Shown here: positions 1-43,948 of the stretch, in pieces
Layout of the letters: every line of letters starts with the position of its first letter
Numbering within the stretch: the first letter of the stretch is position 1
Source: a virus
IMG/VR virus record: IMGVR_UViG_3300042945_001491
Span: 1 to 45,936 of that record
Reading direction: 5' to 3' (one strand)
DNA length: 45,936 bases
Notes under the pieces: model-generated
Databases searched by the model: none
Seen by the model: the letters and a program-made list of their open reading frames with translations, nothing else
Told to the model about the DNA's origin: nothing
Position numbers and translations under genes: made by a program

Positions 1-1638
1 AATAGATCGCTTGTTCTATACAACAACAGCGTTGCGGCGCTTGCACTGCAAAACTCTACGACTGGTACCGCTGGAGGTGATGGATTCCAAATCCAGCTTG
101 TGTCGGCAGACGGTTATGTTTTTAATTACGAAAATGCCCCGATAATTTTCGGTACAAATAGCACCGAACGCCTCCGCATCACATCGGATGGGAAATTAGG
201 TCTGGGGTCTTCTTCCCCTGATGGGAACTTCACCATCGGTGGTCTTACTAACACTGGTGGTCAGTCGGTTGATGCAATCAATGTCAACAGAACAGATGGC
301 TTGCGCCTGTTTGGCGTGAAGTGGGATGTTTCTTCTAACGAAGTCCGCTTCTCTGGTAATACCAAAAACTATGTATTCCGAAACGGTTCAGGCGAAGCAG
401 AGACTGTTCGCATCACCTCGGGAGGGCTGGTAGGGATTGGCAATACTGGGCCTGGCAGTTATAACGCTGGGTTTAACCAGCTTGTTGTCGGCTCAAGCGG
501 TGATCAAGGTGTAACCATTGTCTCTGGTACCTCAAACTCTGGAACCATTGCATTTGCAGATGGAACCAGTGGAGCAGACGCATACCGTGGTTATGTTCAG
601 TATCAACACGGAAGCACAAACGCGTTGGTGTTTGCCACTGATGGCAGCGAAAGATTCAGGTGCGACTCAAGTGGGCGAGTTTTAGTTGGCACGTCTAGTG
701 TTATTACCAATTCTTATGGCAGCAACGCAGGTAGATTTCAAGTTGCAAAGGACGATTATCTACCAATAGGGTTTTTTACTTTTAGTAATTCAGGTGGCGA
801 AAATGGTTACTGCCCTTATGTAGAACTTCATCGGGCGCGAGGCACGCAAGCAAGCCCATCTGCAGTGGCTAGTAATGATGACTTGGGCCTGATTCATTTT
901 TACGGCCACGATGGTTCAACATTCCTTCGCGCCGCATCTATTAAAGCCGTAGTCGATGGCACCTCCGGCACCAACGACATGCCGGGCAGACTAGTGTTCT
1001 CCACTACGAGCGACTCGGCAAGTTCGCCAACTGAACGCGTAAGAATAAACGCAGCAGGCGCCTTCAAAGCATCACTTGCTGGAACCTATGAAAGCTCTGC
1101 GTCTGCTTACCATGAACTTCGCACAAATGCGAGCGGGGACTGGATTGCTTATTTTACGCAAACAACCGCCAGCAATCCAAACGGTGTTCTTATTAAATAC
1201 ACTGGAGCGGCGCCTAACTCTACAGGAAACACTTTTCTTTACTGCGAAGACAATGCAGCCGTCAGAGCCACGATTAGATCCAATGGAGGCATTGCAAACT
1301 ACAGTGCCAATGATGTCAACCTTTCCGACATAAACGCCAAGAAGGACATTGCCCTTGCCACTGGTACTTGGGATTGCCTAAAGGAATGGGAGATCGTCAA
1401 CTTCCGCTATAAAGAGCAGCCCGACGACGCGGATCTGAACTTGGGCGTCATTGCCCAACAGGTTGCGGAGAGCTGCCCTGAAGTCATCACTATCTTCCAA
1501 GAAGCCACCGATGATCACCCCGAAAAGCTTGGCGTTAAAGAGCAGCAGATGATGTGGATGGCAATCAAGGCTCTTCAAGAAGCACAGCTCCGCATCGAAA
1601 CCTTAGAAGCTGAAGTAGCAGCTCTCAAAGCCTCGTAG
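1..1638 (+). CDS. Tail fibre/spike, C-terminal part with S74-type intramolecular chaperone (5' truncated by window edge)
   Basis: The frame is open from base 1, so the gene starts outside the window; the GTG at 100 is not its start. The visible shaft consists of repeated modules ending in SSGR/SDGK followed by L/V-G-I/L/V-G-T/S, as in trimeric phage fibres. The last ~105 residues form a Peptidase_S74 (endosialidase-type) chaperone: Ser at window codon 442 in a SD-x3-K arrangement with Lys 447, matching the Ser/Lys spacing of the known self-cleavage dyad. It ends in a short coiled coil (LRIETLEAEVAALKAS). In this family the chaperone trimerises the fibre and is then cut off. Bases 992-1118 are identical to the window's last 127 bases, so the same C-terminus is shared with the fibre starting at 43949; joined that way the fibre would be 835 aa. 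Receptor recognition is inferred. Confidence 0.9.
   Translation, partial: NRSLVLYNNSVAALALQNSTTGTAGGDGFQIQLVSADGYVFNYENAPIIFGTNSTERLRITSDGKLGLGSSSPDGNFTIGGLTNTGGQSVDAINVNRTDGLRLFGVKWDVSSNEVRFSGNTKNYVFRNGSGEAETVRITSGGLVGIGNTGPGSYNAGFNQLVVGSSGDQGVTIVSGTSNSGTIAFADGTSGADAYRGYVQYQHGSTNALVFATDGSERFRCDSSGRVLVGTSSVITNSYGSNAGRFQVAKDDYLPIGFFTFSNSGGENGYCPYVELHRARGTQASPSAVASNDDLGLIHFYGHDGSTFLRAASIKAVVDGTSGTNDMPGRLVFSTTSDSASSPTERVRINAAGAFKASLAGTYESSASAYHELRTNASGDWIAYFTQTTASNPNGVLIKYTGAAPNSTGNTFLYCEDNAAVRATIRSNGGIANYSANDVNLSDINAKKDIALATGTWDCLKEWEIVNFRYKEQPDDADLNLGVIAQQVAESCPEVITIFQEATDDHPEKLGVKEQQMMWMAIKALQEAQLRIETLEAEVAALKAS
992..1118 (+). repeat. 127-bp exact repeat, copy 1 (matches window end)
   Basis: Bases 992-1118 equal 45810-45936 exactly, and the base before (991 C versus 45809 T) differs. 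Both copies lie in the same reading frame of fibre genes. A length of exactly 127 at a contig end is typical of a de Bruijn k-mer overlap, so this probably marks circular closure plus an alternative incoming branch. Confidence 0.95.
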
Positions 1639-1717: not shown

Positions 1718-2029
1718 ATGGCCACCACCTTTACGTGGGGTATCAACACCCTTGAACGCGAAACCGACGACGGCTTCGTATTTACCGCTCACTACACGGT
1801 CAATGCCTCAGATGAGGCATATTCCTCTGGTGCGTATGGCAGCGTTGGTTTCCAGCGCCCCGACAACCTAATCCCGTACAACCAACTCGACGAGGCAACC
1901 GTAATCGGCTGGGTCCAAGAAGCCCTTGGCGGTGAGGAAAAGGTTGCTGAAATTGAAGCTGCCCTGCAAGCTCAGATTGACGAACAGCGTCATCCGTCAA
2001 AAGCGGCTGGTGTGCCTTGGAGTAACTAA
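1718..2029 (+). CDS. Small conserved-type protein after the fibre, 103 aa
   Basis: The ATG lies 79 bases after the fibre stop, with no clear Shine-Dalgarno site. The protein starts MATTFTWGINTLERETDDGF, then a segment rich in aromatic and small residues that suggests a short beta domain (residues ~1-45), then a helix with EEKVAEIEAALQAQIDEQ (~70-90). I recall similar small proteins after fibre genes in cyanophage-like genomes (DUF7936-like), but that is memory, not a search. Its place next to the fibre suggests a virion or fibre-assembly role. Function unknown. Confidence 0.75.
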   Translation: MATTFTWGINTLERETDDGFVFTAHYTVNASDEAYSSGAYGSVGFQRPDNLIPYNQLDEATVIGWVQEALGGEEKVAEIEAALQAQIDEQRHPSKAAGVPWSN

Positions 2030-2034
2030 AAGCA

Positions 2035-2127
2035 GTGCTGACCGCAGTTGTTTTGGCCGGTGCCTGGTGCGCCGGCATTTTTCTTGTCTACTGCTTGGTG
2101 GCCATCAACCTTCGCGACGACCACTAG
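2035..2127 (+). CDS. Possible 30-aa single-pass membrane protein
   Basis: The GTG start lies 5 bases after the preceding stop. The product is nearly all one hydrophobic helix (LTAVVLAGAWCAGIFLVYCL) followed by a short polar tail VAINLRDDH. Tiny membrane proteins of this kind are common near phage fibre and lysis genes. There is no strong ribosome site, and a chance ORF of this size cannot be excluded. Confidence 0.4.
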   Translation: MLTAVVLAGAWCAGIFLVYCLVAINLRDDH

Positions 2128-2196
2128 TGTGCTAGGAAGGGTGCGGCCAGCGCAGCGCCAACTGCCTGACCCCGATCGACCCACCGACTTGGACCG

Positions 2197-3090
2197 ATGC
2201 CCGAATTGTATCGCGCAGAATCTGCTGCGCCGTCTTGCGATTACACGTTGTCGCAGGCTTGGGAGCTGTTTAAGGAAGAGCGCAGTGTTTCGCTCTGTCC
2301 TACCAGTCTTACCAGTGATTACAAGCAAGTAAGCAAGTGGCTGGAGCGCTGCCCTGTTCAGACGTTTGTTGATGGCCGCCGCGTCTTGACTTGGTTACTT
2401 CAGCAAAAACCGGAAAAATCTGCGCGGCGTGTGTGCATGTATGTACGCAGTTTGTACCGCTGGGCAGCGGCGGAAGATATTGCACTTTTACCACGCAATC
2501 CAGTGGCTAATTTTCGGATGCCTAAGGCGCCGCAGGGTAATCACGAAATTGTTGTCATCCCACGTGACGAGGTTTCCCTTGTACTTGTCGCACTGGAGGC
2601 CAAGCGTACGTACAAGAACGTGAACTGGGCGTGGTTTGCTGAATTTATGTTGCAGACAGCTTTGCGGACAGGTGAAGTACGCGCACTGAAATGGTCTGAT
2701 ATTGATGGTAATCGCGTGCTAGTGCACAGCAATTACACGCTTACGCACGGCCACAAAAGCAGCACTAAAACAAACAAAAAACGCTGGGTGCCGCTTAACG
2801 CCCGCGCTAAAGAAATACTTGCATGTTTGAAACGCGAAAACGATTACATATTCCCCTGGAACAGACTGGCGTTTCAGAGCTACTTCATTAAGCGTATGCA
2901 GGAATTACATAAAGCGGGACTGATCAAAGCGCGGTATCGCCCTTACGACCTTCGCCATGTTGCGATTAGCCGCTGGCTTGAGGCGGGTATCCCGGTCACA
3001 CAGGCCGCAAATTGGGCAGGTAACACCGCTGACGTTATCTGGAAACACTACGCGGCCACAACTGCCGAGTATGAAATTCCCGTGCTTTGA
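2197..3090 (+). CDS. int: Tyrosine recombinase / phage integrase, 297 aa
   Basis: Site-specific recombinase that would integrate the phage DNA at an att site. Residues ~15-105 fit a SAM-like core-binding domain. The catalytic domain shows ArgI in ALRTGEVRALKWSD (R157), a Lys-bearing beta hairpin near 185-197 (STKTNKKRWVPL), the box-II motif YDLRH (R253, H254) and the nucleophile Tyr285 in WKHY. Two variations: the first His of H-x-x-R is Tyr250, a common substitution, and the usual LGH motif reads AGN (N276). The length is normal for phage integrases without a long arm-binding domain. The preceding 69 bases and the following 212 bases hold no convincing gene and could contain attP. Confidence 0.9.
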   Translation: MPELYRAESAAPSCDYTLSQAWELFKEERSVSLCPTSLTSDYKQVSKWLERCPVQTFVDGRRVLTWLLQQKPEKSARRVCMYVRSLYRWAAAEDIALLPRNPVANFRMPKAPQGNHEIVVIPRDEVSLVLVALEAKRTYKNVNWAWFAEFMLQTALRTGEVRALKWSDIDGNRVLVHSNYTLTHGHKSSTKTNKKRWVPLNARAKEILACLKRENDYIFPWNRLAFQSYFIKRMQELHKAGLIKARYRPYDLRHVAISRWLEAGIPVTQAANWAGNTADVIWKHYAATTAEYEIPVL

Positions 3091-4507: not shown

Positions 4508-5606
4508 CCTTTTCAGGTACTACAAAGGTCTTCCGCACCAGATGGCTGCAATTACGGAGCTGGAGTCCGTAATTTCAAAGGCGAATCCCCACATCCTGGG
4601 CCGCGACCAAGGCTGGTTCAAAACTTGGAGCGTTGCCGGCAAACAAAGCCAGTTCCCCAACAGCTGGGAAGGCATCCTCGAAGCCGCCCGAGTAGCTGGT
4701 GCCAAATTTCCCGAACTGGTAGCTGCCCAATGGGCACTCGAATCAAATTACGGCAAATTAGTATCTGGCAGAAACAATTTTTTCGGCCTTAAAGGTGAAG
4801 GAAGCGATAAAAAAACACAGGAGTTTATTAACGGGCAATGGGTAACAATCACCGATAGCTTCATCGACTTTCCGGATCTACTCTCGTGCGTGATCTACCT
4901 CGTAGATCACTGGTACAAAGACTACAAAAACTACAAAGGTTGTAATAACGCTGCCACCCGTGAAGAGGCCGCTAAGTGGCTTCACAAGGAAGGTTACGCA
5001 ACAGACCCCAACTATCCAGGCAAGTTGATCCAGCTGATGGAACAACATGCGGGAGCTAAACCTGTCGTTCCCCCAAACCAGAAGCTACTAAAAGTTCCTT
5101 ACGAATACCAGCTGGGATCGGACGATGGCCCCAAGGGCTGGCGTCAGTGCTTTAGCTCCAGCTGCGCAATGGTGGCCCGCTACTACGGCAAAGTAAACGG
5201 AGACTACGAGTACAACGCTCTACGCGCTCGTTTCGGCGATACCACCGATCCAAAAGCACAAATCGCCGCACTCAAAGCACTGGGACTGACCGCCACATTC
5301 GAAATGGATGGCACAGTCGAAGACCTAGAGGCCGAAATAGCCAATGGCTATCCAGTTCCTGTCGGTTGGTTACATCGAGGACCTGTATCGAACCCGAGTG
5401 GGACAGGCCACTGGACAGTTGTGGTGGGATATACGCCAACACACTTCATCCACAATGACCCGTTCGGTGAGGCAGACCTAGTAAACGGGGGTTACGTCAG
5501 CAACAAGGGTGGAGCCGGCATCGCCTACTCCAGAAAGAACTGGCTGCCTCGCTGGCTCATCGAAGGCAACGACACAGGCTGGTTCATGAGAATCCGCAAA
5601 GGTTAG
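4479..5606 (+). CDS. Endolysin: glucosaminidase-type domain plus C39-like peptidase domain, 375 aa
   Basis: Peptidoglycan hydrolase for lysis. Residues ~1-55 form an N-terminal segment I cannot name. Residues ~60-195 match GH73/FlgJ-type glucosaminidases: AAQWALESNYGK with the likely catalytic Glu88, then NNFFGLKG, an FPDL/YLVDHWY region and GYATDPNYPGKL. Residues ~200-375 look like a C39-like cysteine peptidase: Cys224 in WRQCFSSSCAMVARYY, His311 in GHWTVVVGY and Asp327 in HNDPFG. It may therefore cut both glycan and peptide. No signal peptide is visible, which fits holin-dependent release. The ATG overlaps the -1 frame tail of the preceding gene. Exact bonds cleaved are unknown. Confidence 0.85.
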   Translation: MATNKIRLIDLFRYYKGLPHQMAAITELESVISKANPHILGRDQGWFKTWSVAGKQSQFPNSWEGILEAARVAGAKFPELVAAQWALESNYGKLVSGRNNFFGLKGEGSDKKTQEFINGQWVTITDSFIDFPDLLSCVIYLVDHWYKDYKNYKGCNNAATREEAAKWLHKEGYATDPNYPGKLIQLMEQHAGAKPVVPPNQKLLKVPYEYQLGSDDGPKGWRQCFSSSCAMVARYYGKVNGDYEYNALRARFGDTTDPKAQIAALKALGLTATFEMDGTVEDLEAEIANGYPVPVGWLHRGPVSNPSGTGHWTVVVGYTPTHFIHNDPFGEADLVNGGYVSNKGGAGIAYSRKNWLPRWLIEGNDTGWFMRIRKG

Positions 5607-13310: not shown

Positions 13311-15706
13311 CAGTCCCACATCCGTGCGGCTTCCTGCATCAGCTGATCCAGCTCGTCAGGAGTGCGTTCTTCCCTTGGGGAGGGTTCAAAAACCTGTCCT
13401 TTTATGTCAGATCCATTGGTATGACTGGGAAGTAAATCGGGACACGGGGTAGGGGTGTCCTCTTTTGCTCCAGTCTCTCCATCAAAAGAGGACACGCTTA
13501 GGGGCTGTCCTTTTTTACTTTCCAGTCCCTGACTGGGTTTTCCCAATTCAGGACACTTATTCACACACATATCACGCGAGAGAACAGCTTGGTACAAATT
13601 GGAAGGTCTGGCACCAGAGGAGGTCTGACCGACCACCTCAACCAACCCCCTCGAAACAAGCCTCTGGAGCGCCTTGCCGATAGCGGCCACACTTCCACCG
13701 CACAACGCATCCGCAGCGAGGTCAGAGCGGCTTAGAGAGCGCGGGTACGCAGCCCTAAGGCGCTGGAGCACCCGATCAACGATGGAAGCGGGACTGGCGC
13801 TGTCGGTATCGAGCTCCACGTAGTCCGCGAGCGAGAAGGTCAGGTCGCTTTCGAGCTTCATCAGGAGCTTGGAGCCATCACGACCAGCTCTGGACTTCTC
13901 CACGGTGATGAGGCGAGCGTTGTAGCCCGTCTGCTCAACCTGTTTTTTGTCAGGCCGGCGGAGCCCCCACACCTCATCCACAGCGTCCCGAATGGCAGTG
14001 GAACCCCGAAACCCGCCGGTCTTGTTGGCGTGGTGGATCAGCAGGATGGTGCAAGCCGGGAACATGCGGCCGTTGTTGTTGGCTAGCCAGTAGATCGGGC
14101 TTGCAAACTCCTTCTTGTTTTCGTCGAACGCCGAACCCCTGCTACAGCCAGTGATCGAGTCAATGATCACAAGCTTCGGCTGGTGCTTCTCGATCAGCTT
14201 GACGAAGCGGTAGTACCAGTTCAGGTCCCACCCCATCACCACCGTCACGGGATCCGACGGCTGGAACTCAAGATCACGAAGCTGTTGTTGAACCTGCACT
14301 TCGGATTGGTCGCCGTTGAGGATCAGAACGGGACCGGCTTCCACTGGAACGAGATCACCCCGCACGGAGAACGGAATCCCACGGGCAACATGCTTGGCAA
14401 TGGTCCACGCCGACATGGATTTGCCATCACCACCAGCGCCGTGAATCATCACGGTGCCAGGGCAAGGCAGCAGATCCGGGATGAGGTACTCGAACTTCAG
14501 GTCCTTATTCAGCAAGCTGTCCATCGCCATCTCGTCATCTTGCTGCTCGAACTGCATCTGAGCGATCAGCAACCGCTCCAGCGCACCAGCGTCCCGATAA
14601 CCAGCTTCCAAGGCGAGCACGTTCATGGCGTGCGCGGCTTCCGCCGGGTTTTGAATCTGCTGGATCTCTTTCGCCCGCTTAATAACTTCGGCGTAGGTGA
14701 TGACAACCTGCCGAATCCGGGTGACGTTATCCGCCTCAACACTTTCAACAACCTTCCGCAGATCTTCCGAAAGCCACATGCGACCCGGAAGCTGCTGGTC
14801 CGCCATCCAAAAAAGCGTTCCGAGGCTGACCGGTCCTTTGCGAAAGGACTTCCAGACCTCATCGCAGGGATTGCCGTCTGCCCAATCCTGAAAAAATTCG
14901 GGGTCTTCCGCAGACCAAGCCGACCAAAGCGTCAAACCAAGGTCAGTCGGCAGTTCCGAGTGGATCGCCATTCCCACCTTGACCCAGTGATCGCGGCTGC
15001 CACTGCCCTGACCTGGAATGACCTTCAGCGCCGACTGAATGATTTCGGCAACTTCAGCTGGATCACGATCCGAGAAATCCAGCGCCTTGCGGTTCTTGAT
15101 GAAACCGCCGTCCTGGATCTCCTTACCGGCGTGATCACGCATTTCGGCAAGCAACCACTCGGGGGCGTCAGGAATCGCCTCCAGGTCCCCTTCAAAGCCG
15201 TACTGCCCTTCTGGTGCCTTCCCATCACTGGAGCCCGGATAAGCCCCGTAGATGACGCCCTGACGGCCCCAGAGCACCTCGTAACCAGCGCCGGTATCCG
15301 ACAGCCCAAAACCCTTCACCGAGCCCCACAGGGCCTCAGGGACGCGGAAGAGGTACTTAGCGGCGTTCGCCTTGGTCGACGTAACGACTGGAGCACCCTC
15401 CAGCGACTCGCCCCACTTTTTCTTGAGACGGCTGAGATTCCGATCCACGTCGAGAATCACGAGTCCCATGCTGCGACCGCCCGTAAAGACGCCCACCGCC
15501 TGGAACACATCAGGCTTGCGCTCGATCTGGAGCGCCACATCCGACGGCGCCATCACCTGATGGTGGCTGCGCTCTAGCGGCGTCTTGCCTTTCGAGATTT
15601 TCCCGGACTGGATCGCCTGATCTTTGGCGTAGATCGGTGCATACGCCATCCCCACAGGCAGCTGGCGCACAAAAGCCAGCAAGTCCTGCGTCTTACCTTG
15701 CGACAT
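13310..15706 (-). CDS. PrimPol-helicase fusion (replication initiator), 798 aa
   Basis: Start chosen at the ATG of MSQGKTQDLLAF; the frame extends 10 codons upstream to a GTG (15736) with no better ribosome site. Positions here use the longer frame. Residues ~20-205 are a prim-pol/AEP domain (VILDVD, D96/D98; TSTKANAAKYLFRVP). ~225-320 is a PriCT-like helical domain (SGSRDHWVKVGMAIHSEL). ~415-600 is a RepA/RecA-like helicase: Walker A GAGGDGKS (433-440), Walker B LVIIDS (522-527), then IHHANKTGGFRGS. ~650-720 is winged-helix-like, and the tail is disordered. It would prime and unwind for the PolA in the same operon. The first gene of the operon; upstream is a divergent promoter region. Confidence 0.9.
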   Translation of the reverse strand: MSQGKTQDLLAFVRQLPVGMAYAPIYAKDQAIQSGKISKGKTPLERSHHQVMAPSDVALQIERKPDVFQAVGVFTGGRSMGLVILDVDRNLSRLKKKWGESLEGAPVVTSTKANAAKYLFRVPEALWGSVKGFGLSDTGAGYEVLWGRQGVIYGAYPGSSDGKAPEGQYGFEGDLEAIPDAPEWLLAEMRDHAGKEIQDGGFIKNRKALDFSDRDPAEVAEIIQSALKVIPGQGSGSRDHWVKVGMAIHSELPTDLGLTLWSAWSAEDPEFFQDWADGNPCDEVWKSFRKGPVSLGTLFWMADQQLPGRMWLSEDLRKVVESVEADNVTRIRQVVITYAEVIKRAKEIQQIQNPAEAAHAMNVLALEAGYRDAGALERLLIAQMQFEQQDDEMAMDSLLNKDLKFEYLIPDLLPCPGTVMIHGAGGDGKSMSAWTIAKHVARGIPFSVRGDLVPVEAGPVLILNGDQSEVQVQQQLRDLEFQPSDPVTVVMGWDLNWYYRFVKLIEKHQPKLVIIDSITGCSRGSAFDENKKEFASPIYWLANNNGRMFPACTILLIHHANKTGGFRGSTAIRDAVDEVWGLRRPDKKQVEQTGYNARLITVEKSRAGRDGSKLLMKLESDLTFSLADYVELDTDSASPASIVDRVLQRLRAAYPRSLSRSDLAADALCGGSVAAIGKALQRLVSRGLVEVVGQTSSGARPSNLYQAVLSRDMCVNKCPELGKPSQGLESKKGQPLSVSSFDGETGAKEDTPTPCPDLLPSHTNGSDIKGQVFEPSPREERTPDELDQLMQEAARMWD

Positions 15707-18621: not shown

Positions 18622-18761
18622 AGGCTAGGTGTGCCGTACCCTGCAACAGTAGCGCAACAGTCAACCGGCGCCGACCGTTTGAAGAAGTGTAACAGTAGGA
18701 AGGGTTACGGCTGGTGCTGCTGCCATGCTTGGGGCTGATCACCTAGGGAGACGATCCCACC
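18622..18761. promoter_or_regulatory. Divergent promoter region with three TGCAACAGTAG-type elements and a shared leader
   Basis: TGCAACAGTAG (18642-18652), GCAACAGTC (18654-18662) and GTGTAACAGTAG (18687-18698) are read as CTACTGTTGCA on the minus strand. The minus copy GGTTGACTGTTGCGCTACTG resembles GGTTGACTGATTTGCTACTG at 19178. The + gene is preceded by CACCTAGGGAGACGATCCCA (18740-18759), also seen at 21425. Confidence 0.55.
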
Positions 18762-19187
18762 ATGGCCAACGACTTCACCACCACCCGCAAGTTGAGCCAG
18801 GCAGACCCTGCCTACCAACAGCTGGAGCAAACCCACACCGACGCGTGCAAGGCTGTTCACGATGCAGCGGCCAAACCTCGCAACCTGACATACAAGCTGC
18901 AGCGGTTGCTCCTGGCGCGTGATGCCGTCTCGCACTATGCCACCGAGACGGAATGCACCGATCCCGATCAGGACAATTTCCTGGAGCAAACCACGGCAAA
19001 CCATGGGGAGACGTGGTGCGGGATGTTCAACGCTGCAGCCGACGACATTAACGAGATGATCTACGCGCTGTGCGCCACGATCACGCAGCAACGGCTGGAA
19101 CACGAACAGCTGATCGCCGCCCGTGATGCTGCCCGCGAGGCCAAGCAAGCCCGTTGGGAAGAACTGGAACGCCAGCCGGTTGACTGA
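18762..19187 (+). CDS. Helical hypothetical protein, 141 aa
   Basis: ATG 18762 follows a repeated leader sequence. Mostly alpha-helical (AYQQLEQTHTDACKAVHDAA ... LTYKLQRLLLARDAVSHYAT ... AARDAAREAKQARWEELERQ), with three Cys and a likely C-terminal coiled coil. No known domain. First gene of a group of small + genes with shared upstream elements. Confidence 0.7.
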   Translation: MANDFTTTRKLSQADPAYQQLEQTHTDACKAVHDAAAKPRNLTYKLQRLLLARDAVSHYATETECTDPDQDNFLEQTTANHGETWCGMFNAAADDINEMIYALCATITQQRLEHEQLIAARDAAREAKQARWEELERQPVD

Positions 19188-19191
19188 TTTG

Positions 19192-19222
19192 CTACTGTTG
19201 CACACAAGCCACACCGAGGCAC
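19192..19222 (+). promoter_or_regulatory. Leader/promoter repeat, copy 1
   Basis: CTACTGTTGCACACAAGCCA closely matches CTAGTGTTGCACACGAAAGC at 19828, and both lie just before an ATG. TACTGT may be the -10 box. Confidence 0.5.
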
Positions 19223-19224
19223 TC

Positions 19225-19785
19225 ATGGCAACTATCAGCATCAACACCAACAGCGGCCCGTTAGAGGTTCCCGCTAAGTGGCTGGGGCAACACCTAGCCG
19301 TAACGCCGCCGGTGAAGGCTGGGGCGCCCATTCAATCGCGCGGCCAATGGGTGATCACGCATGCGGCCACGGGTTTCAGCTGCGGCACCGTGCTTTGCAG
19401 CCAAAAAGCCGCCATTCAACTGGCACGCGATTGGGATGCCCGCTTCGGACTGATCAGCACACCCGCAGACGTCAAGGGCTGGCCGCATTCAAAGGACTGG
19501 GGCCGGGCCATTCAAGCGATCAACTGCCCGTGGCAGGTTGACCATTCATCAGACGATGATGCGGGCAGCACTGAAACGGCGCTAGTCCTAGCGGCCCGCG
19601 CTGGAATCCCCATCGATCAGGCGGGTGCGGCGCCCCGCGTGTTCTGGCGCGGCCAGTGGTGGCTCCCGCCTACAGACGGGATGCTCGAGAGCTGGACTTT
19701 CGATTCTGTGTGCGAAACACCGGACGGCCGCACAGTGGAACCGGATCATCCTGAGGCCTGGCTAAGCATCCTGCGGCTAGTGTGA
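19225..19785 (+). CDS. Hypothetical protein, 186 aa
   Basis: Start taken at ATG 19225 (MATISINTNSGPLEVPAKWL) because the promoter-like repeat lies immediately upstream; the frame is open further back. Contains beta-rich parts (WVITHAATGFSCGTVLCSQK), Trp-rich segments (GWPHSKDWGRAIQAINC, VFWRGQWWLPP) and ends in a compact helix WLSILRLV. It is preceded by one leader repeat and followed by a hairpin and the other. Function unknown. Confidence 0.7.
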   Translation: MATISINTNSGPLEVPAKWLGQHLAVTPPVKAGAPIQSRGQWVITHAATGFSCGTVLCSQKAAIQLARDWDARFGLISTPADVKGWPHSKDWGRAIQAINCPWQVDHSSDDDAGSTETALVLAARAGIPIDQAGAAPRVFWRGQWWLPPTDGMLESWTFDSVCETPDGRTVEPDHPEAWLSILRLV

Positions 19786-24223: not shown

Positions 24224-25696
24224 GTGGTCTACAGCGCCAATATCCCGCCAACTGGAGCTGTAGTCAGCGAATCTCCCTTCGTCCGCAGCCTCGAAGTAAT
24301 CGGCATGATGCCGGACTGGGGCGTAATGGCAGCTGTCACACGCGGCACGAACTACATCCGCGACATGAGCGAGACCTATCTCCCTCAGGAACCGCGTGAA
24401 GACGACGACGCATACCAAACCCGTGTAGACCGCAGCGTCCTCAGCCCCTACACCAGCCGCCTGATCGAAACCGCCGCTGGTGCCATCCTCCGCAAACCAA
24501 TCCACATCGAGGGCGACCCTTACTGGCTGGAAATTGCGCAAAACATCGACGGCCTCGGCTCTAACATCAACGAATACGCCCGCCGCGCCCTAGTAAGCAG
24601 CCTCACCTACGGCCACAGCGCCATTTTGGTGGATTATCCGGCAGCAACTGAAGCCCGCAATCTGGCCGAAGAGCGCGCCATGGGCCGCCGCCCCTACTTC
24701 GTCCACGTCGATGCCCCCCAGATCTGGGGCTGGCGCAAGGAATCCGGCACCAACCGCCTGCTACAAGTCCGCATCCACGACTACGACGTTCGCCCGCTGA
24801 ACGAATTCGGCGAAGAACAGGTTGAGGAAATGCGCGTCATCTACCCCGGCCGCTACGACCTCTACACACTGGGCCAAGAACTGGTCGAGTTCACCGCCAC
24901 CGGCGGCTACAGCCTCGACGAAATCCCCCTAGTCCCGATCTACAGCAACCGCCGTGGCCTGCTGGTGTCCCAGCCCCCACTGCTGGACATCGCCAACCTG
25001 AATATCACGCACTACCAACGCCAGGCCGACCTTATCCATGCCCTCCACATCGCGGCCATGCCCACCCTCGTCCTAGAGGGCTGGGACGACACGACGGGTT
25101 CAGCAACGATGGGCGTCAACTACGCCATCGCCATGCAACCGGGCAACAAGGCGTACTACGTACAGGCCGACGCCACCAGCTTCGACGCCCAGATGCAAGA
25201 ACTCCAAGCACTGGAGGGCCAAATGTCGACGCTTGGCGTCACCAAACTCTTCGGTCAAAAGTTTGTCGCCGAGTCCGCCGAGGCCAAGCGCATCGACCAA
25301 GCCCAGAGCAACAGCGTGCTCTCGATCATCAGCCAAGAACTGGAAAGCGCCCTCCAACAAGCCTTCGGCTTTGCCGCCCAATACGTCGGCATGGAACCGC
25401 CTGAAATCACAATCGACCGCGATTTTGACTACTACCGCTTGATCGGCCAAGACGTATCTGTACTGGCACAGCTGAACCAGATGGGCAAGATCAGCGACGC
25501 GATGCTGCTGGAGATCCTGCGTCGCGGCGAAGTGTTGCCTGACAACATCAATGTCGAGGACGAAATGGAAGCGGCTGGGCTACCAGCAACCGCAATCACC
25601 GAAGAGGCAGAAACAACCGAGGAGGAAGGACCAGACCTGTCTTCTGAAATGACGCCTGATCGCGTGGATCGCCTGATCGAACTGCTGTCCCGCTGA
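24224..25696 (+). CDS. Portal protein (DUF4055-type), 490 aa
   Basis: GTG start with TAGGAGCC upstream. The dodecameric portal forms the DNA entry channel. The pattern of the DUF4055 family is present: an early [20 protein letters not shown], then [86 protein letters not shown], and a helical C-terminal region ([20 protein letters not shown]). It lies between terL and the scaffold as expected. The stop overlaps the next start by one base. Confidence 0.9.
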
Positions 25697-26493
25697 TGGC
25701 TACCCCAACCGAGCAGCTAACGCTCGCCCAAGTCACCGCACTGGTACGCCTGACGCAGCGTGTCGATGCAATTAACACGATCCACGCAGGCGACGGCCCC
25801 CCACACGCCACACTCGGCACCGACGGCGACTGGTACATCAATCTCGACCCGCTCACGATTTACGGCCCCAAAACTGACGACGACTGGGGCGAAGGTTTTG
25901 AGCTTGTCACGCGCACACAGGTAAGCGGACTAACCGTTGGCGGGGCACTCCCCGGTGGCGCCGGCACGGCAGCAACGATTGCCATCGGCACCACAACGAC
26001 AGGCGACGCCGGCACCGAAGCCGCCGTCACAAACGTTGGTACAGAATCCGCCGCCGTTTTCGACTTTGTTATCCCGCGCGGTGCAACAGGCGCGACAGGC
26101 TCCACAGGAGCTACCGGACCCGAAGGCCCCCAAGGTCCGCAGGGCGAACAAGGTATCCAGGGATTAACGGGTCCACAGGGCGAAACAGGTGCGCAAGGAC
26201 CCCAGGGCATCCAAGGTATTCAGGGCGAGCCGGGTCCCCAAGGTGAGCAGGGCCTACAGGGCGAGACAGGCCCCCAAGGCCCACAAGGCGATACAGGTGC
26301 CACTGGCGCCCAAGGCCCCCAAGGCGAGCCTGGCACCGCCGCGACCATAACAATCGGCGCCGTCACAACCGGCTCGGCAGGCAGCAATGTCGTGGTCACT
26401 AACAGCGGCAGCAGCACAGCAGCGGTCCTCAACTTCACGATCCCCAAAGGCGACCAAGGAGATCCAGCTTCAACTAATGATGGAACGTATTAA
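25696..26493 (+). CDS. Collagen-like virion protein, 265 aa
   Basis: A ~90-residue N-terminal domain is followed by a short beta block ([19 protein letters not shown]), then 28 or so Gly-X-Y triplets (~residues 132-215; [19 protein letters not shown]...), then a second copy of the same beta block ([20 protein letters not shown]) with PKGDQG. The collagen run would make a triple helix; the matching blocks on both sides may cap it. Collagen-like proteins occur on phage heads and fibres. Position between portal and scaffold suggests a head or neck fibre. Ends in NDGTY, also the end of the 41778 fibre. Confidence 0.85.
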
Positions 26494-32336: not shown

Positions 32337-35300
32337 GTGGCCTACAGAGCCGATATTGAAATTGCGGTACGCGGCGCCCAAGAACTTAAACGCCTTCAGA
32401 ACGAAGTATCTGCAACATCAAAACTTGTAAACCAGCTCAACAACTATCTAGAAAATATCGGCAGCGGAGGCATTGTCCGCAGCATCAACAATTTACGTGA
32501 CGTTGTAGGTCGTGCGGCTGCTGCATTTAATGAAGCCGCTTTGGGCACAGATGAAGCGACTATTGCAGCCAAGAAATACATAGCAGCAACAAATGAGCTC
32601 AATACCGGGCTACGTGAAAGAGTCGAGTTGTTAAAACAGATCACTGAGCAAGAACGGAAAGCAAAACTTGCCGCCGCTGGCGTAAGAGAAACTACGCAAT
32701 ATGGCGGTCCCATCGGTCCCGGCCAAGCTTCGCCAGTCGCATTATCCTCACAACTGCGTGGACGAACGGAACAAATACTCGCCGAAAGAAAAGGCGCTAA
32801 AGAATTAGAACAAGTATTGGGAGCGCTAGAAGAAAGAAGGCGTTTGGAAGCGAACGCCATGCTGGATCAAAAAGCGGCGTCTGTAGCGCTGCAGGCTGAG
32901 CGCAAAAAGGAAAAATTTCTTGCGGGCTCTACTCAATTTGTTGAGCCCATAGGTCCGGGCCAAGCATCTCCGGTGGCACTAGCGTCACAACTGCGTGGAA
33001 GAACCGAGCAAATCCTTGCCGAACGCAAGGGCAGAACAGAACTCAATGCTGTTTTGCAAGCTCAATTTGAAGCCGAACAGCGCTTGGTTAATTCAAAATT
33101 AGACGCTAAAGCAGCCAAGGTACAGCAAGTTCTCGACCAACAAGCTGCGGCAGCAGCTGAAAGCGCTGCTCAAACTAAAAAGCTAGCTGACAGGCAACTG
33201 GAATTTACTGAGCGCACTGAAGCAGCAGCTCGTGCAGCTAAAGCGCAAACAGCTGAGTTCGTTCGCCAACAACGAATAACTAAACAAATGCGCGGCGTAA
33301 GCGCTCAGGCACCTGCCGGTGGTTTTCCTGTTGAAGGTCCCATGTCTAGCCCCGGTTTTAGGGGTATGCAAAAAAGCGTAGGTCGTTTCGGAGAAAATTT
33401 AGCTCTTGGCGCAGGTTTTCCCCTTCTTTTTGGGGGCGGTGCCGGTAGTGTCCTTGGTTCTGTACTTGGTTCTTTTGTAGGTACAGGTTTTGGCGGTCAA
33501 ATTCTTGGTGGCGCTTTAGGACAAGCCTTGGACCAAGCACTAGTTAAAATTAAAGATATAGGAAACGCAATAAAAACACTCGATTTTAAAACTTTAACGG
33601 AGTCTGGTATTCGTCTTTCAGCTGAAATTCAAGGGCAACTTGAACTTCTAACACAGGTAGGAGATAAATTAACTGCCCAAAAAATTCTAAGTCAGGAAAT
33701 AGCTAATGAGACAGGAACTTTACCTGGAGTTACAGAAGATGTAGCTAATAGTGTTAACATACTTAGCGATTCTTGGCGTAAAGTTGTAAACGCTGTAAGC
33801 ACTACTGTCGGCATTATTGGCGCACCCTTTGCCGTAGCTTTAGCCGCAATTTTGGAAGCAATTAATGCGATATTTAGAGTAGTAAACGGAGTATTTAGCC
33901 TTTTAGGTAAAGGTATTAAAGTTATAGGGAAATTTGTTGTAGAGTTAGTTGCTGGTAAAGAGGCATTAGATGCAATAAATAGTGGTTTGGATAGTATGAA
34001 TTCTGGACTAGCCGAGGCAAACGCGCAGGCAGCTCAATTTCGTTCGATACTTAATCAATCTGTTGTGCAGTCTGCTATTGAACTTCAGGTAACTAGACAG
34101 CTTACCCCAGGGGTTACTCCAGAAGATAAAATAACTAATCAACGACTGCAGGCACAAAAAGAATTGGATATTTTATTCCAAGAAGAGATAGAAGCTAGGG
34201 TTAAAATTAGGCAAGAAAACGCCAAAGCATCTGCTGAAATTGTAGAAGGGCTGATAAAACAAAATGACCTTTTATATAAGAACAAAGCAGAGACTATAAA
34301 AATTAACAGTAACAGACAAATTACCGCAGAAATTCAACGTAATCAAGCAGAGCAAGAAAGAAAGGCCGCCCAAGAACTTGAAAAACAGCGGAGAGAGCTG
34401 GAGCGTATTGCAAAGTTGCGCTTAGAACAATTAGATAATGCACAACGTGCATTTGTTTTAGCTGAAGCTGAACTTGACGTACTTTCGTATGAAGATCCTA
34501 TTCGTAAGGTACAAGCCGAATACGATAAAATTCGTGCCGAAAGAATGTTTAAGTATTCGGATTTGCTCAAAAAAGCCTTGAGTGATGAGGAAAGAGCTTT
34601 TATAGTTAAAACTCAATATACAGAAATTTTAAGGGACCAACTGCGCGAAGAAGAAGCTGTACTTGAGGCACAGAAAAAACAAACAGCAGAGCTATATGCG
34701 CAGTTAAAAGCTTCCGGCATCTTAAACGAACAAGCTCAAAGAGATATTACAAAAGGCGCTACAGCTGGAGGCATAGGTACTCAAAACGGTAAGTTACCTG
34801 CTGGAGGTTTTACACCCGGTTTACCACAGTTAGCCGGTGAAAGAGGCGATCGTGGAAAGATTGAGGATCGCATTGCGCAAATAAAAGAAGAAGTAAAAGA
34901 ACTTACAAACATAGGTAATATCGCCATAAAAGTTGCAGATGGCATTGGGGAAGCATTTAGCACCGCTTTCCAAGGATTAGTTTCTGGCGCTATGACTGCT
35001 AAGGAAGCTTTAGCAAGTTTCTTCCAATCTGTTGGCGATATGTTCATTAAAATGGCTGCTGAAATAATTGCAAAGCAAACAGTAATGATAACTTTGCAGC
35101 TAATTCTTAAAGCACTTGGCGCTATTGCAGCATCAGCAGGTCCAGCCACAGGTGCTGCTGCAAGCAAGGGGTACACACTTCCTAAGGGAGGGGGTTATGC
35201 AGGCGGCTTTAGTATGCCGCCGATTATGGGCAGAGCTGCAGGAGGTTCAGCAACAGGCGGCACACCTTATTTGGTGGGCGAACGAGGTCCTGAACTGTTT

Positions 35301-36803: not shown

Positions 36804-39800
36804 CCCGCCGCCTACTGCCCTACGAACACCAGCTGATTGCTGAGCTGGGCATTAGCGAGCAGGAATACCTGAACTTTGTGCAGGCGCAATTTGATCACAC
36901 ACGCCTGCCTGCGGACAAACTAAAAGAACCGCAAAACTGGGAAACAGTTGCAATCGTTCTGACGATTGTTGGCATCTTGTTTCAGGTTGGTGCTGCATTA
37001 TTGGCACCTAAACCGGAGCTTCCATCTCAACAAAATCAACGCCGCAGACGCGATCAAACTTTTTCCCCGCGTTTTGGTTTTAACAGCGCACAGGAGCTAG
37101 CCAAATACGGCGATCCAGTCAATCTGGTTTATTGCAACACCGATCAAAACACAACAGGTGGAGTCCGTGTAAACACCTCAATGGTGTGGTCGGCGGTTAA
37201 AAGTTTTGGTTCCAGTCAGTTTATGCAGATGGCTGCAGTGCTTGGAGCATCAAACATTGATCCGGCTGGTATTGATGTAGCTCGCACAGCATTTGGCCAA
37301 GCAACACTGCGTCAGTTAGCAGCGCAAAAGTATTGGCTATATCTGCGTCAAAACGGAATACTGCGTTTCAGCGATTTGAAGTTTGGTAGCGGTACCGATC
37401 CAACTGCAGGTGCTGAGCCTGCATCCGCGTTTGTTTACAAGGCATCGCTTTCTGGTGCAACACGTACAGAAGGATTTAGCCAAGCATTTTCCCCTTCCAC
37501 GGCAACCCGTTGCGGCATTACAGCTCCAATACCTATTAATGTTCTGTATCTAGACCGCGACGAAAAAGGTAGTTCTAACCAACGGGCTGAGTTGGGCATT
37601 GAACTGAACGGACGAGGCGTGTATTGGCCTGATGCGCTGCTTGATAACTCTCGTCCTGCAATACCGTTGGGCACTGTCTTTACGCTGCGTTTTAAGGCAC
37701 TTGCCAGTAGTGGAGCCGGCGACGTAAGGCAAGCTGCATCAGAACTGCGGCGCAGTTTGCTCAGCTCTATTGATGCCGCTAGCACGTACAAACTGGGTAG
37801 CGCCAAGTTTCGCGTTAAAGGACAAATATCAGACCTGGAGTTAGATAACGATGCCAGCACTATTGACCTGGAGTGCGTGGAATCCGGCGTATGCCCAGAG
37901 GAAGATTACAGAACGCAAAACTTTAAGGCCAACGAGAAAGAAGCTACCGATGAAATCACACGGCTTAACGCTGAAATCTTGGAACTACAGCGACTGATAA
38001 GTCAAACCCCTCCGATCCTTACGCCATCAGCAGCCGCTAGAGCCGGTGAAATCAATGCGCGAATAAATCAAATAAACGAAAGAATTGAATTGATTGAGGA
38101 GTTGCGAGACAAAAAGTGGGAGACATACGAAATTGAGGCAATCGCAGGTGACGACGGCAGCCTTTATGATAATAATACACAACATTTTGCTAGAAAAATT
38201 GATGAATTAAGGGAAAACAGGCGGTTGGCACAAGATGCTATTGACGATGAGCTTGATAAACCGGGGGCGCAACGAAACCGAGTACGCATTACAAATAGGA
38301 GAAACGAAATTAGAAATATTAATTTAAGACTTAAAGTTTTTCAAGGAAAATTAGATGAGGCGATTCGCCAGTATGGTTTTGCTGACGGACAAGGACGCAA
38401 TTTACGTGCCCAACGCAAAAATTGGCTCCGGGAGCAAGCAAACTTAAACAACGAGTTGGCCGCAATTTATGGCGGCGCGGGCAGTGTAGATACCGCCGCC
38501 ACAAATGCCCGTGCTACTGGCTGGCAAAACCAGATCACACAAAAACAATCCGAAAAGGCTTACTACGAATCCGTTATTAAGAATCCAGAACTGCTCAACG
38601 ATTTCTTTAACACAAAGTGCCTCGTAAAAATCGAAGAGGCATCATACGAAACAATTACACCCTGCCGAATTGTTGACTTTGCATTGAAGGCTCGCGTTTT
38701 TAAGCGTATCCAAGGCCGCGCCAAAACATACGGCGAAGTGAGCATGGATAACTACAAAGACAGCGATAATGGTTACAAGTTGCGCTCGATGTTCTTCTGG
38801 GTTTGGTATCGCCGCACAGGCAATGCATGGTCGCGCATCCCTCGCATTTTCGTAGTCCGCCGTGGCGCCGATCAGGACAACTATATGTTCCTGAAATTTA
38901 TCGCCGATGACAATATCGGTAACTGGCAATTTAAGTTCGAGCCGATTGCTGAAACAGCAGCGGAAATGCGCTATTACGGCGTAGCAGATTTTGCCTACAT
39001 CGAAAACGCAGGCACGATACAAAACATCGCAGGCCCCGCTGGTGGCACGTTCAGCTTTACCGGTAAGTTACGTGCGCGTGACGGATACGTAGCTCCGATT
39101 AATCGCAACCCTTCTGAAGTTGACGAATGGGGCTTGTTCTCCATGCGCTCAGATACACAAATCAGCTTTAGTTTTGATAATGGTCCCGAGCTAGAAATCA
39201 AAGCCGTTACTGAGCAGTCAACTGAAGCCTTTAGCAATTACCCGCAGCTATACAGCAATCTGACGATGCTGGGCTTCAACGTCTACAGCGGTCAAGGCGT
39301 ACAGGATCTGCGTTCAATGAGCGTATTCGTAAACAAGGGTCGGCTTGTACGCCGCTTGAATGACGACGGCACTTACAGCGCAAATCCGGACACCGCCTCC
39401 AGCTTTGCACCCGAAATCTTCCTAGACACCATTCTTGACACGGTGGACGGCATTGGACAGTTTGCCAAGATCGAAGGAATTGATCTACCCGCATTGGCAC
39501 TGGCTAAGCGTTTCTGCCAGCGCAACAACCTGTTTTTTGACGGTGTGATTGCCGAGCCAACATCGTGGCGTCAGTTCTGGGCAGAAGTCGGTCCATACAG
39601 CCTGCTGGAACTGGGACGTATTGGCGGCAAGGAAACCTTGATTCCTGCAGTGCCTTGTGACAACAGCGGCAACATCACCCGCACAGTGCCAATCCGCGCC
39701 ATGTTTACCGCCGGCAACATCCTTGAGGATTCCTACAAGGAGGAATTTATTGATTACGGCAGCAGCGTTCAGGATTTGATCGCCACAGTTATATACCGCA

Positions 39801-40405
39801 ACACCGAACGTGACGGTGTATTTCCACGTAATGCCAGCGTTGATGTAAGCCTTGTTGGCGTAACAGAAGCAACGGCGATCCGTCAGACGTTCGATCTATC
39901 GCAATACGTCACCAACAGAAGTCAAGCAATCATGTATGCCAAGCTGTTGTGCCAGCAACGCCGCAACATCCGCCGCAATATCGAGTTCAAGACCTTCCCG
40001 ACAGACAGCCCGCTGTCCCCTGGCGCCTACATCTACGTTGATGCCGGCTTGCAGGAATGGCAGGGCATTTACAGCGGACAAGTTGAATCGGGTGGTGCGT
40101 TAAACATCCCGCTGGCAGACGCCATTCCCAACGGCAGCTACAGCGTGCTGCTTTACAAGAACGGGCAAAGCGTCATTACCACAACCGCCAGCATCAGCTC
40201 CAACGTGGCTAGTTCCCTTGCCGCTTACGAAGGCTGGCTATTTGTGCTTGGGACACCCGCCAAGGCAAAGCGCACCTTCCGTGTGGTTGAAGTACAGATG
40301 GATGAGGAAGGCGAAGTCAGTGTCCGAGCCGTGGAGCATCCCTGCGATAACTCCGGTCAGAGCCTGATCGCTGACTTTAGCGACGGTCTATTTACCATCC
40401 GCTAG
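36800..40405 (+). CDS. Tail tip hub / J-like host specificity protein, 1201 aa
   Basis: ATGA overlap. Early hydrophobic helix (~50-70: VAIVLTIVGILFQVGAALLA) as in gpI/J-like hub proteins, then hub domains (TTGGVRVNTSMVWSAVKSFG; FSPSTATRCGITAPIPINVL). A long helical/coiled-coil insertion lies at ~375-600 (LNAEILELQRLISQ ... INERIELIEELRDKKWETYE ... NLRAQRKNWLREQANLNNEL) in AT-richer DNA. Later parts include PRIFVVRRGADQDNYMFLKF and the C-terminal fibronectin/hub-like region (TFRVVEVQMDEEGEVSVRAV). It forms the central tip spike. Confidence 0.88.
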   Translation: MTRRLLPYEHQLIAELGISEQEYLNFVQAQFDHTRLPADKLKEPQNWETVAIVLTIVGILFQVGAALLAPKPELPSQQNQRRRRDQTFSPRFGFNSAQELAKYGDPVNLVYCNTDQNTTGGVRVNTSMVWSAVKSFGSSQFMQMAAVLGASNIDPAGIDVARTAFGQATLRQLAAQKYWLYLRQNGILRFSDLKFGSGTDPTAGAEPASAFVYKASLSGATRTEGFSQAFSPSTATRCGITAPIPINVLYLDRDEKGSSNQRAELGIELNGRGVYWPDALLDNSRPAIPLGTVFTLRFKALASSGAGDVRQAASELRRSLLSSIDAASTYKLGSAKFRVKGQISDLELDNDASTIDLECVESGVCPEEDYRTQNFKANEKEATDEITRLNAEILELQRLISQTPPILTPSAAARAGEINARINQINERIELIEELRDKKWETYEIEAIAGDDGSLYDNNTQHFARKIDELRENRRLAQDAIDDELDKPGAQRNRVRITNRRNEIRNINLRLKVFQGKLDEAIRQYGFADGQGRNLRAQRKNWLREQANLNNELAAIYGGAGSVDTAATNARATGWQNQITQKQSEKAYYESVIKNPELLNDFFNTKCLVKIEEASYETITPCRIVDFALKARVFKRIQGRAKTYGEVSMDNYKDSDNGYKLRSMFFWVWYRRTGNAWSRIPRIFVVRRGADQDNYMFLKFIADDNIGNWQFKFEPIAETAAEMRYYGVADFAYIENAGTIQNIAGPAGGTFSFTGKLRARDGYVAPINRNPSEVDEWGLFSMRSDTQISFSFDNGPELEIKAVTEQSTEAFSNYPQLYSNLTMLGFNVYSGQGVQDLRSMSVFVNKGRLVRRLNDDGTYSANPDTASSFAPEIFLDTILDTVDGIGQFAKIEGIDLPALALAKRFCQRNNLFFDGVIAEPTSWRQFWAEVGPYSLLELGRIGGKETLIPAVPCDNSGNITRTVPIRAMFTAGNILEDSYKEEFIDYGSSVQDLIATVIYRNTERDGVFPRNASVDVSLVGVTEATAIRQTFDLSQYVTNRSQAIMYAKLLCQQRRNIRRNIEFKTFPTDSPLSPGAYIYVDAGLQEWQGIYSGQVESGGALNIPLADAIPNGSYSVLLYKNGQSVITTTASISSNVASSLAAYEGWLFVLGTPAKAKRTFRVVEVQMDEEGEVSVRAVEHPCDNSGQSLIADFSDGLFTIR

Positions 40406-40431
40406 TCTGAAACTACGCATAACACGGTCTG

Positions 40432-40869
40432 ATGGGCTTCTACACAGGTCGCTCCGGTTCCTTGGTGGTGGACGGAAAGCCTGTCGCCAAGATCCGTGAT
40501 TGGTCGCTTGATACCACGGTTGAATTGATCAACACCAACACCGTCGATAGCACCAGCAACACTTTTGTCCCTGGCATTAAGAGCGCCACCGGCAGCGCCA
40601 CGCTGGTGTACTACAGGCTTGAAGCCGGCGAATCCGTTACCTACAGCCAGTTCACCGCACTACTGGGCAAGATCCAAAAGGTTGGCGCTGTTGCCGAATC
40701 TGATCGTGTGCTGATGGAACTACGTGTCGGCAGCAACTCCAACGACAACATCCAGTTTTACGCCTACATCACATCAGCACAAGTTGCGGTATCGACTGGC
40801 GAGCTTACTTCCGTGCCAATTCAATTTACGGTTGACGGCGACTTCATTGCCGGAGGCGTGATCGCATGA
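40432..40869 (+). CDS. Tail-tube-like protein, 145 aa
   Basis: MGFYTGRSGSLVVDGKPVAK then IRDWSLDTTVELINTNTVDS, SATGSATLVYY and a final strand TGELTSVPIQFTVDGDF. This is the strand-helix-strand arrangement of tail tube proteins, and IRDWSLDTTVE resembles CRDWSFEISRAE in the main tube protein. Lies after the hub rather than before the tape measure, so it may be a tip-ring or adaptor. Confidence 0.72.
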   Translation: MGFYTGRSGSLVVDGKPVAKIRDWSLDTTVELINTNTVDSTSNTFVPGIKSATGSATLVYYRLEAGESVTYSQFTALLGKIQKVGAVAESDRVLMELRVGSNSNDNIQFYAYITSAQVAVSTGELTSVPIQFTVDGDFIAGGVIA

Positions 40870-41741
40870 CGGTTTTTCTTGGTGTTCACGGCACCGTAAA
40901 ACTGCGCCGTAATGCAGGTGCTACGTCTGCACAGCTATCGGACAGTATTGATCCCGCTGATATTTCAACAACGCTAAATCGCATCGGTCTTGACACATCA
41001 CTTGACAATATCCTTACCGGGGACCGGCTTGATATTTCAACTACAGACCCGCGTGGGCTAATTTGTTTTGATTCTTCCGCATGGGATTCCGGCGTTGTTG
41101 AAAGTTCAATATCCGTATTTGTAAACGTAAACGGCGCTGGCGGTCTTAGATTCTTCCATTTATTTTCCGACGCCGTAAATAACAATAGATCCGCCGAGCT
41201 TACCGTCTACGCCTTTGCTGGCGCACCTATCCCAATCGGCTATACCATCCGTGACGTTGTATACAACACACTCGGAAATGTAGTCAATTATCAGCTAAAT
41301 ACAGACCGCGAAGCGCTAGATGTAACGAGCCTAAGCGATAAATTCCGTAATCAGTATGCCGCAGGGCTTATCAGCGGCTCTGGCACGATTGACTGCCTTT
41401 TTGATTACACAAGTGACGGCTCAAAAGAATCGCCCCTTTTAATGCTCCAGTTGATTCAACGCCTCGATATTGGTAGTGCGTTTGATTGCGCCTTTTACCT
41501 GACAGACGCGGAAATTACGCCTGAGACGCAGACGATTTTTTACCAGACGACTGCGATGGTGACTCGGGCCGGGGTCACGGTCAACACAACCGACACAATC
41601 CAGTGCGCGATTGATTTTGTGACCACCGGCGAAATCCGGCTGCTTGTCGGAAGACCGGCTGATTACATCCTGAAGGAGGACGACGACCGCATCCAACTGG
41701 AGCAGTCACTCGCCTTTCTTCTTCAGGAAGCTACTGACTAA
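40866..41741 (+). CDS. Tail protein with a tube-like domain, 291 aa
   Basis: ATGA overlap with the preceding gene. N-terminal half: MTVFLGVHGTVKLRRNAGAT, strands through GLRFFHLFSDAVNNNRSAEL. C-terminal half: VNYQLNTDREALDVTSLSDK then SGTIDCLFDYTSDG and LLMLQLIQRLDIGSAFDCAF, again like a tail tube repeat. Probably a structural tip or fibre-attachment protein. Function inferred from context. Confidence 0.7.
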   Translation: MTVFLGVHGTVKLRRNAGATSAQLSDSIDPADISTTLNRIGLDTSLDNILTGDRLDISTTDPRGLICFDSSAWDSGVVESSISVFVNVNGAGGLRFFHLFSDAVNNNRSAELTVYAFAGAPIPIGYTIRDVVYNTLGNVVNYQLNTDREALDVTSLSDKFRNQYAAGLISGSGTIDCLFDYTSDGSKESPLLMLQLIQRLDIGSAFDCAFYLTDAEITPETQTIFYQTTAMVTRAGVTVNTTDTIQCAIDFVTTGEIRLLVGRPADYILKEDDDRIQLEQSLAFLLQEATD

Positions 41742-41777
41742 ACTGACTTTACGGCAGCAGGCACTGGAGGCTTTACC

Positions 41778-43898: not shown

Positions 43899-43948
43899 AG
43901 AGAGTCGTTACAGTTAGAAGGTAATTTCCGGCCTACGGGCGTTAAGGA

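Follow-up and report, generated by a model that had tools for sequence, protein, structure and literature searches.

It is already known that the tail fibers of near-identical phages vary and that adhesin genes recombine between conserved motifs. The latter is said to have been described for the T-even phages by Tetart et al. in 1998, whose adhesins are reportedly exchanged in this way. In marine phages, tail-fiber genes vary among coexisting, near-identical genomes in what have been termed metaviromic islands, with a conserved N-terminal and a variable C-terminal part of the fiber (Mizuno et al., 2014, PMC3909814), and a change of receptor is the usual reason given for selection on fibers (PMC3909814, PMC4646655). 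Phylogenetic incongruence of the tail fiber gene has been published for the group of the Synechococcus phages S-CBP3 and S-CBP4 (PMC4646655), and distantly related Alteromonas phages share tail fibers (PMC10579305). The locus described here adds a detail not found described in a limited literature search, namely a motif-bounded cassette pattern in cyanophage fibers of the S74 type; that search likewise found nothing direct on S74 in connection with cyanophages or on the shuffling of shaft domains.

The DNA analyzed (the window) is a stretch of 45,936 nucleotides, the IMG/VR virus record IMGVR_UViG_3300042945_001491. Searches against PHROGs and Pfam found a terminase, portal, major head protein, tape measure, central tail protein, integrase, endolysin, DNA polymerase A, and primase in the window, while a search for tRNAs in it found none. 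Among named phages, cyanophages are the best portal relatives (e.g., KBS-S-2A, S-2L, and S-H1) at 35-36%, and the named phages with DNA matches to the fiber are also cyanophages, nearly all of Synechococcus, the exception being one uncultured record. The window phage is therefore likely a cyanobacterial siphovirus, its host being suggested by sequence relationships.

Comparison of the window with itself shows that its last 127 bases (45,810-45,936, plus strand) repeat bases 992-1,118 of the same strand exactly, with the match ending at the left edge. Both copies are in frame with fiber ORFs, one running from 43,949 to the end of the window and the other occupying 1-1,638 in frame 1. This in-frame identity had been claimed in an earlier note on the DNA and is confirmed by direct comparison. 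The repeat is as exact as the note had it, but its length of "exactly 127" is that of an assembler overlap, and the true shared stretch is at least 127 bases. The number appears to be no property of the gene because it recurs in contigs from many metagenomes. Among 12 near-complete relatives found via their portal protein, four have ends identical over exactly 127 bases, i.e., are circular, and three more take the form of a lasso, in which one contig end is found again, over exactly 127 bases, within the other (G002 at 56, G007 at 1028, and G011 at 45429). Judging from these overlaps, the 127 bases reflect assembly and not biology, and the identity of the two fibers to the right of 992 would extend for at least that length. 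The lasso branches of G007 and G011 are near-identical copies of the loop (96.6-97.9%) and that of G002 is 55 bases long with few positions different from the loop, so that all three can be read as ordinary microdiversity. Unlike these, the branch in the window is a different shaft. It comprises 991 bases (1-991) with no left-hand connection in the contig, and the circle that it joins measures 44,818 bp (45,936 - 1,118). An exact 44-mer from the shared end was absent from all other IMG/VR contigs in an exact search; the stretch of 127 identical bases is thus not widespread and points to recent common descent of the two ends. Another IMG/VR record, L150, carries near-identical DNA (99.76% identity over 5,350 bp).

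The fiber gene, like all features given here on the plus strand, opens with a conserved N-terminal part of ~280 residues (43,949-44,792), which matches phrog_356 (minor tail protein), has 86-91% nucleotide identity in records L067-L071, and likely serves in attachment to the virion. At its border with the shaft lies conserved segment 1 (GIYSPGADQVAISTNGTGRLFVDASGN; 44,696-44,793), ~100 nt that recur at roughly 78-99% in many otherwise different fibers. Shaft A follows at 44,793-45,809 and is unlike both the alternative shaft, B, and the shafts of L067-L071; a single cassette between two of its DSSGR motifs (45,044-45,301) has a 92% match in L099. The two alleles converge at the conserved segment VDGTPGTNDMPGRLVFSTT (45,770-45,825), of which ~56 nt recur at 83-91% in other fibers and whose counterpart in shaft B is 952-1,007. 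Shaft B itself (1-991, within the open frame 1-1,638) is the 3' part of an alternative shaft, incomplete at its left end, and a phmmer search of its reading against the PDB gave no match. The common 3' end of the fiber (1,119-1,638) carries a C-terminal S74 chaperone domain (PF13884; Pfam match at ~1,324-1,485, E 3.9e-9, 37.1 bits vs. a cut-off of 22). It contains the motif S-D-x-x-x-K (NLSDINAKKDI), which is present in most of the S74 ends listed and whose serine and lysine we take to be the cleavage-site residues of S74; the end is a predicted self-cleaving chaperone.

To the left of the 127-mer the two shafts do differ, as the earlier note held, and little DNA similarity links them beyond short motif matches. 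Directly beside the 127-mer, 952-991 and 45,770-45,809 agree at ~75% over 40 nt (94% over 167 nt with the 127-mer included), and it is in this stretch that the VDGT(S/P) segment mentioned in the note was found, as VDGT(S/P)GTNDMPGR. Left of 952 and 45,770, ungapped identity between A and B drops toward chance level, and the similarity that remains consists only of a 56-nt repeat (82%) and an 18-nt match, both at DSSGR-type motifs. The limit of 44,819 that had been given for the differing shaft is merely the mirror coordinate of base 1; judged from relatives, the shafts diverge at ~44,750-44,816. In one such relative, L059, positions 5001-5182 are 96% identical to bases 1-182 of shaft B and sit 12 nt after DNA matching 44,729-44,804 of fiber A. 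The genome of L059 is otherwise well diverged from the window, and its similarity to B is limited to these 182 bases. Of both shafts, pieces occur in related genomes, that of A in L099 and that of B in L059, both within otherwise different fibers.

The relatives also show how far fibers of this type differ behind a common start. L067-L071 match the window at 86-91% along ~6 kb and the opening 800-857 nt of the fiber gene, and the similarity stops abruptly at conserved segment 1 (ISTNGTGRLFVDASGN), except that L069 simply ends there. Between L077 and L082, which come from two IMG/VR metagenomes, identity is 98.1% across the 5,966 bp leading to a point within the fiber gene and 97.9% across 1,427 bp starting at about the fiber stop codon, and yet their shafts and tips differ despite this flank identity of ~98%. 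They are, in other words, near-identical genomes that differ in the fiber, as in a metaviromic island. The tip of L082 is an S74 domain (E 4e-12). In its place, L077 has a non-S74 tip that also occurs in L067 (L077:7200-7718 and L067:7211-7729, ~81% DNA identity in two phage lineages), ends in ...SKTIAKVTSTxVxCTYDDGSYCVPCVLMAC, and is unclassified, matching neither a PHROG family nor, above cut-off, a Pfam family. The idea that the chaperone and cleavage end stays fixed while shafts change thus holds for at least 127 bases in the two alleles of this sample, but not for the group, whose tips vary. Taken together, these comparisons indicate that shafts are genuinely exchanged in this group of phages and that this is common.

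The lasso is very probably a circle of 44,818 bp into whose single S74 fiber gene shaft B of a coexisting variant enters, the locus being a replacement island. The 991-base branch would join the circle at the shared 127-mer within the S74 tail-fiber gene, and shaft B would come from a variant, presumably of the same population, whose fiber converges on the same 3' end. This convergence most likely arose by homologous recombination at the conserved VDGTxGTNDMPGRLVFS segment. Within such an island the N-terminal ~280 residues would be retained, and behind them cassettes ~80 residues long, with DSSGR(V/L)GIGT-type motifs at their borders, would be swapped between phages, as would the tips, which may be one of several S74 subtypes or a non-S74 tip. 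Co-infecting phages would recombine in or near the short conserved segments, and those recombinants that keep the frame and the domain borders would survive, so that one end, S74 or other, could serve many shafts. The S74 end probably helps the trimeric shaft to fold and is then cut off, which would allow different shafts to use one tip. The fiber would be the part that binds the receptor, and the exchange of shafts may thereby affect host range.

An alternative possibility is that shaft B is part of another phage, which has the fiber end in common with the window phage owing to a recent transfer, and that the contig joins two species at the shared k-mer. The start of B does occur in L059, which is well diverged from the window, and B lacks a link to the left; however, L059 matches B over 182 bases only and is not the source, and replacements of this kind are also seen among the window's near relatives, which makes this origin improbable. 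It is less likely still that one genome carries tandem fiber genes with a common S74 end, the contig starting in one and ending in the other. The window contig does hold two partial fibers with one end, and in S-CBP4 two neighboring genes are annotated as tail fibers. In relatives, however, the gene order is a P0002-like gene, the fiber N-terminus, the tip, ORF1718 and/or the integrase, and the endolysin, with a single fiber of this type at the locus. Upstream in the window lies P0002 itself (41,778-43,898, plus strand), a separate fiber-like gene with weak PHROG tail-fiber matches that also precedes the fiber in relatives, so that the locus already has a second fiber-like gene; downstream lie ORF1718 (phrog_7802) and the integrase (2,197-3,090), together 1,718-3,090 on the plus strand, in the same neighborhood as in relatives. 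L067 is unbroken from DNA matching 38,695-44,792 through one 826-residue fiber to DNA matching 1,628-1,879, L077 and L082 likewise show one fiber gene followed by the downstream flank, and in L059 the start of shaft B stands behind the N-terminal part as a replacement. Given L059 and the single locus of the relatives, the most fitting view of B is that it replaces the shaft at this one locus instead of belonging to a second gene, and a tandem second fiber was rejected on synteny and the unbroken L067. Of the earlier note's reading, the circular genome of ~44.8 kb with an alternative fiber is borne out by the 44,818-bp circle and the one fiber in relatives, but the duplicated second fiber offered beside it is unsupported. 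A programmed switch of the shufflon or invertase type, in which the nearby integrase turns cassettes within one genome, is scarcely credible: the integrase gene does start ~560 bp behind the fiber and conserved segments do flank the exchangeable parts, but the window holds no second cassette copy elsewhere, direct or inverted, and hence no silent store, and the integrase is presumably the expected lysogeny gene.

Within the replacement island, the exchanged pieces appear to follow the repeat structure of the shaft. DSSGR-type motifs are spaced at a median of 82 residues in 59 nonredundant fiber ORFs, and the shafts can be described from these sequences as strings of ~82-residue cassettes bounded by such motifs. 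Homology between fibers tends to end at the same places. Across 76 nonredundant fiber ORFs, interior ends of homologous blocks were counted when they lay within 45 nt of a motif. For blocks of 200 nt or longer at 90% identity, a motif was near 88% of the 25 interior ends; random positions would give 34%, and none of 300 random draws exceeded 68%, although this set of 20 blocks contains few independent ones. At 95% identity the value was 93% of 15 ends (35% expected), and at 85% identity the effect was weaker (57% vs. 32% expected). Single cassettes are shared by L019 and L116 (300 nt, 96.7%), L081 and L113 (257 nt, 98.8%), G004 and L113 (227 nt, 98.2%), and L082 and L115 (200 nt, 92.5%), and the matches of the window's own shafts in L099 and L059 are further cases. 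Exchange thus seems to proceed in blocks of ~80 amino acids. At 60-80% amino acid identity, fourfold-site identity was 0.51, 0.45, and 0.44 for three motif segments, 0.34 for the N-terminal part, and 0.41 for S74, a modest excess of the segments over the N-terminal part in pairs that are not independent of one another. The conservation of the motifs could also stem from structural constraint, with only recombinants at domain borders surviving. At the DNA level, the DSSGR and VDGT segments of siphoviruses resemble those of podoviruses, and one large-genome phage has a weaker match. It is conceivable, and we put it forward tentatively, that Synechococcus phages of different families draw on a common pool of ~80-residue shaft cassettes and trade single cassettes, in addition to whole fibers, at DSSGR and VDGT segments that would serve as standing recombination sites.

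As in the T-even adhesins, short conserved motifs inside a host-recognition gene would serve here as exchange points; unlike them, the motif in the window is a repeat of the fiber shaft, each cassette measures ~80 residues, and several types of cyanophage are involved. The window group resembles the metaviromic islands in its near-identical phages, conserved N-terminal part, and variable remainder of the fiber, but the evidence for those islands is low read recruitment (PMC3909814), whereas the window brings two alleles together in a single contig and the pieces exchanged within its group can be traced to single cassettes. A comparable case is offered by S-CBP3 (NC_025461) and S-CBP4 (NC_025464), which belong to two genera, have 95% identity along a stretch of 1,354 bp that runs into the fiber gene, and differ beyond it. 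Both have conserved segments in common with the window, and S-CBP4 has an S74-like end, although they are podoviruses while the window phage is likely a siphovirus. Both were isolated on Synechococcus CB0101 (PMC4646655), and a different shaft therefore need not mean a different isolation host. In the Alteromonas phages, too, host-recognition modules move between unrelated phages (PMC10579305), but what is transferred in their case is an entire module whose chaperone gene is separate, whereas in the window it is parts of a single gene that includes its own S74 end. When a contig has a peculiar internal repeat of 127 bases, it can be read as one complete circle together with a second allele, a reading that recovers fiber variants otherwise lost in assemblies. 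If cassette exchange is true, the unit of fiber change in these cyanophages would be the single shaft repeat.

Several further features of the genome were observed. The closest complete circular relative of the window is the record G003 (L261-L263), in which the integrase, compared with its neighbors, points the opposite way from the integrase in the window and the fiber has no match to the N-terminus or the S74 end of the window fiber. At 13,423-13,527 an inverted repeat (45-nt arms, 76%, 15-nt loop) lies at the 3' end of a minus-strand primase-like gene, and a second inverted repeat with 28-nt arms (89%) ~500 bp apart (18,642-18,669 and 19,175-19,202) surrounds an ORF region without a PHROG match (18,705-19,331, minus strand). 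An ORF with collagen-like and tail-fiber PHROG matches (25,696-26,493) stands between the portal and major head genes, directly behind the former. Lastly, the tape-measure gene contains two direct 113-nt copies (76%) within 32,692-33,041, and its middle part is the most A+T-rich stretch of the window.
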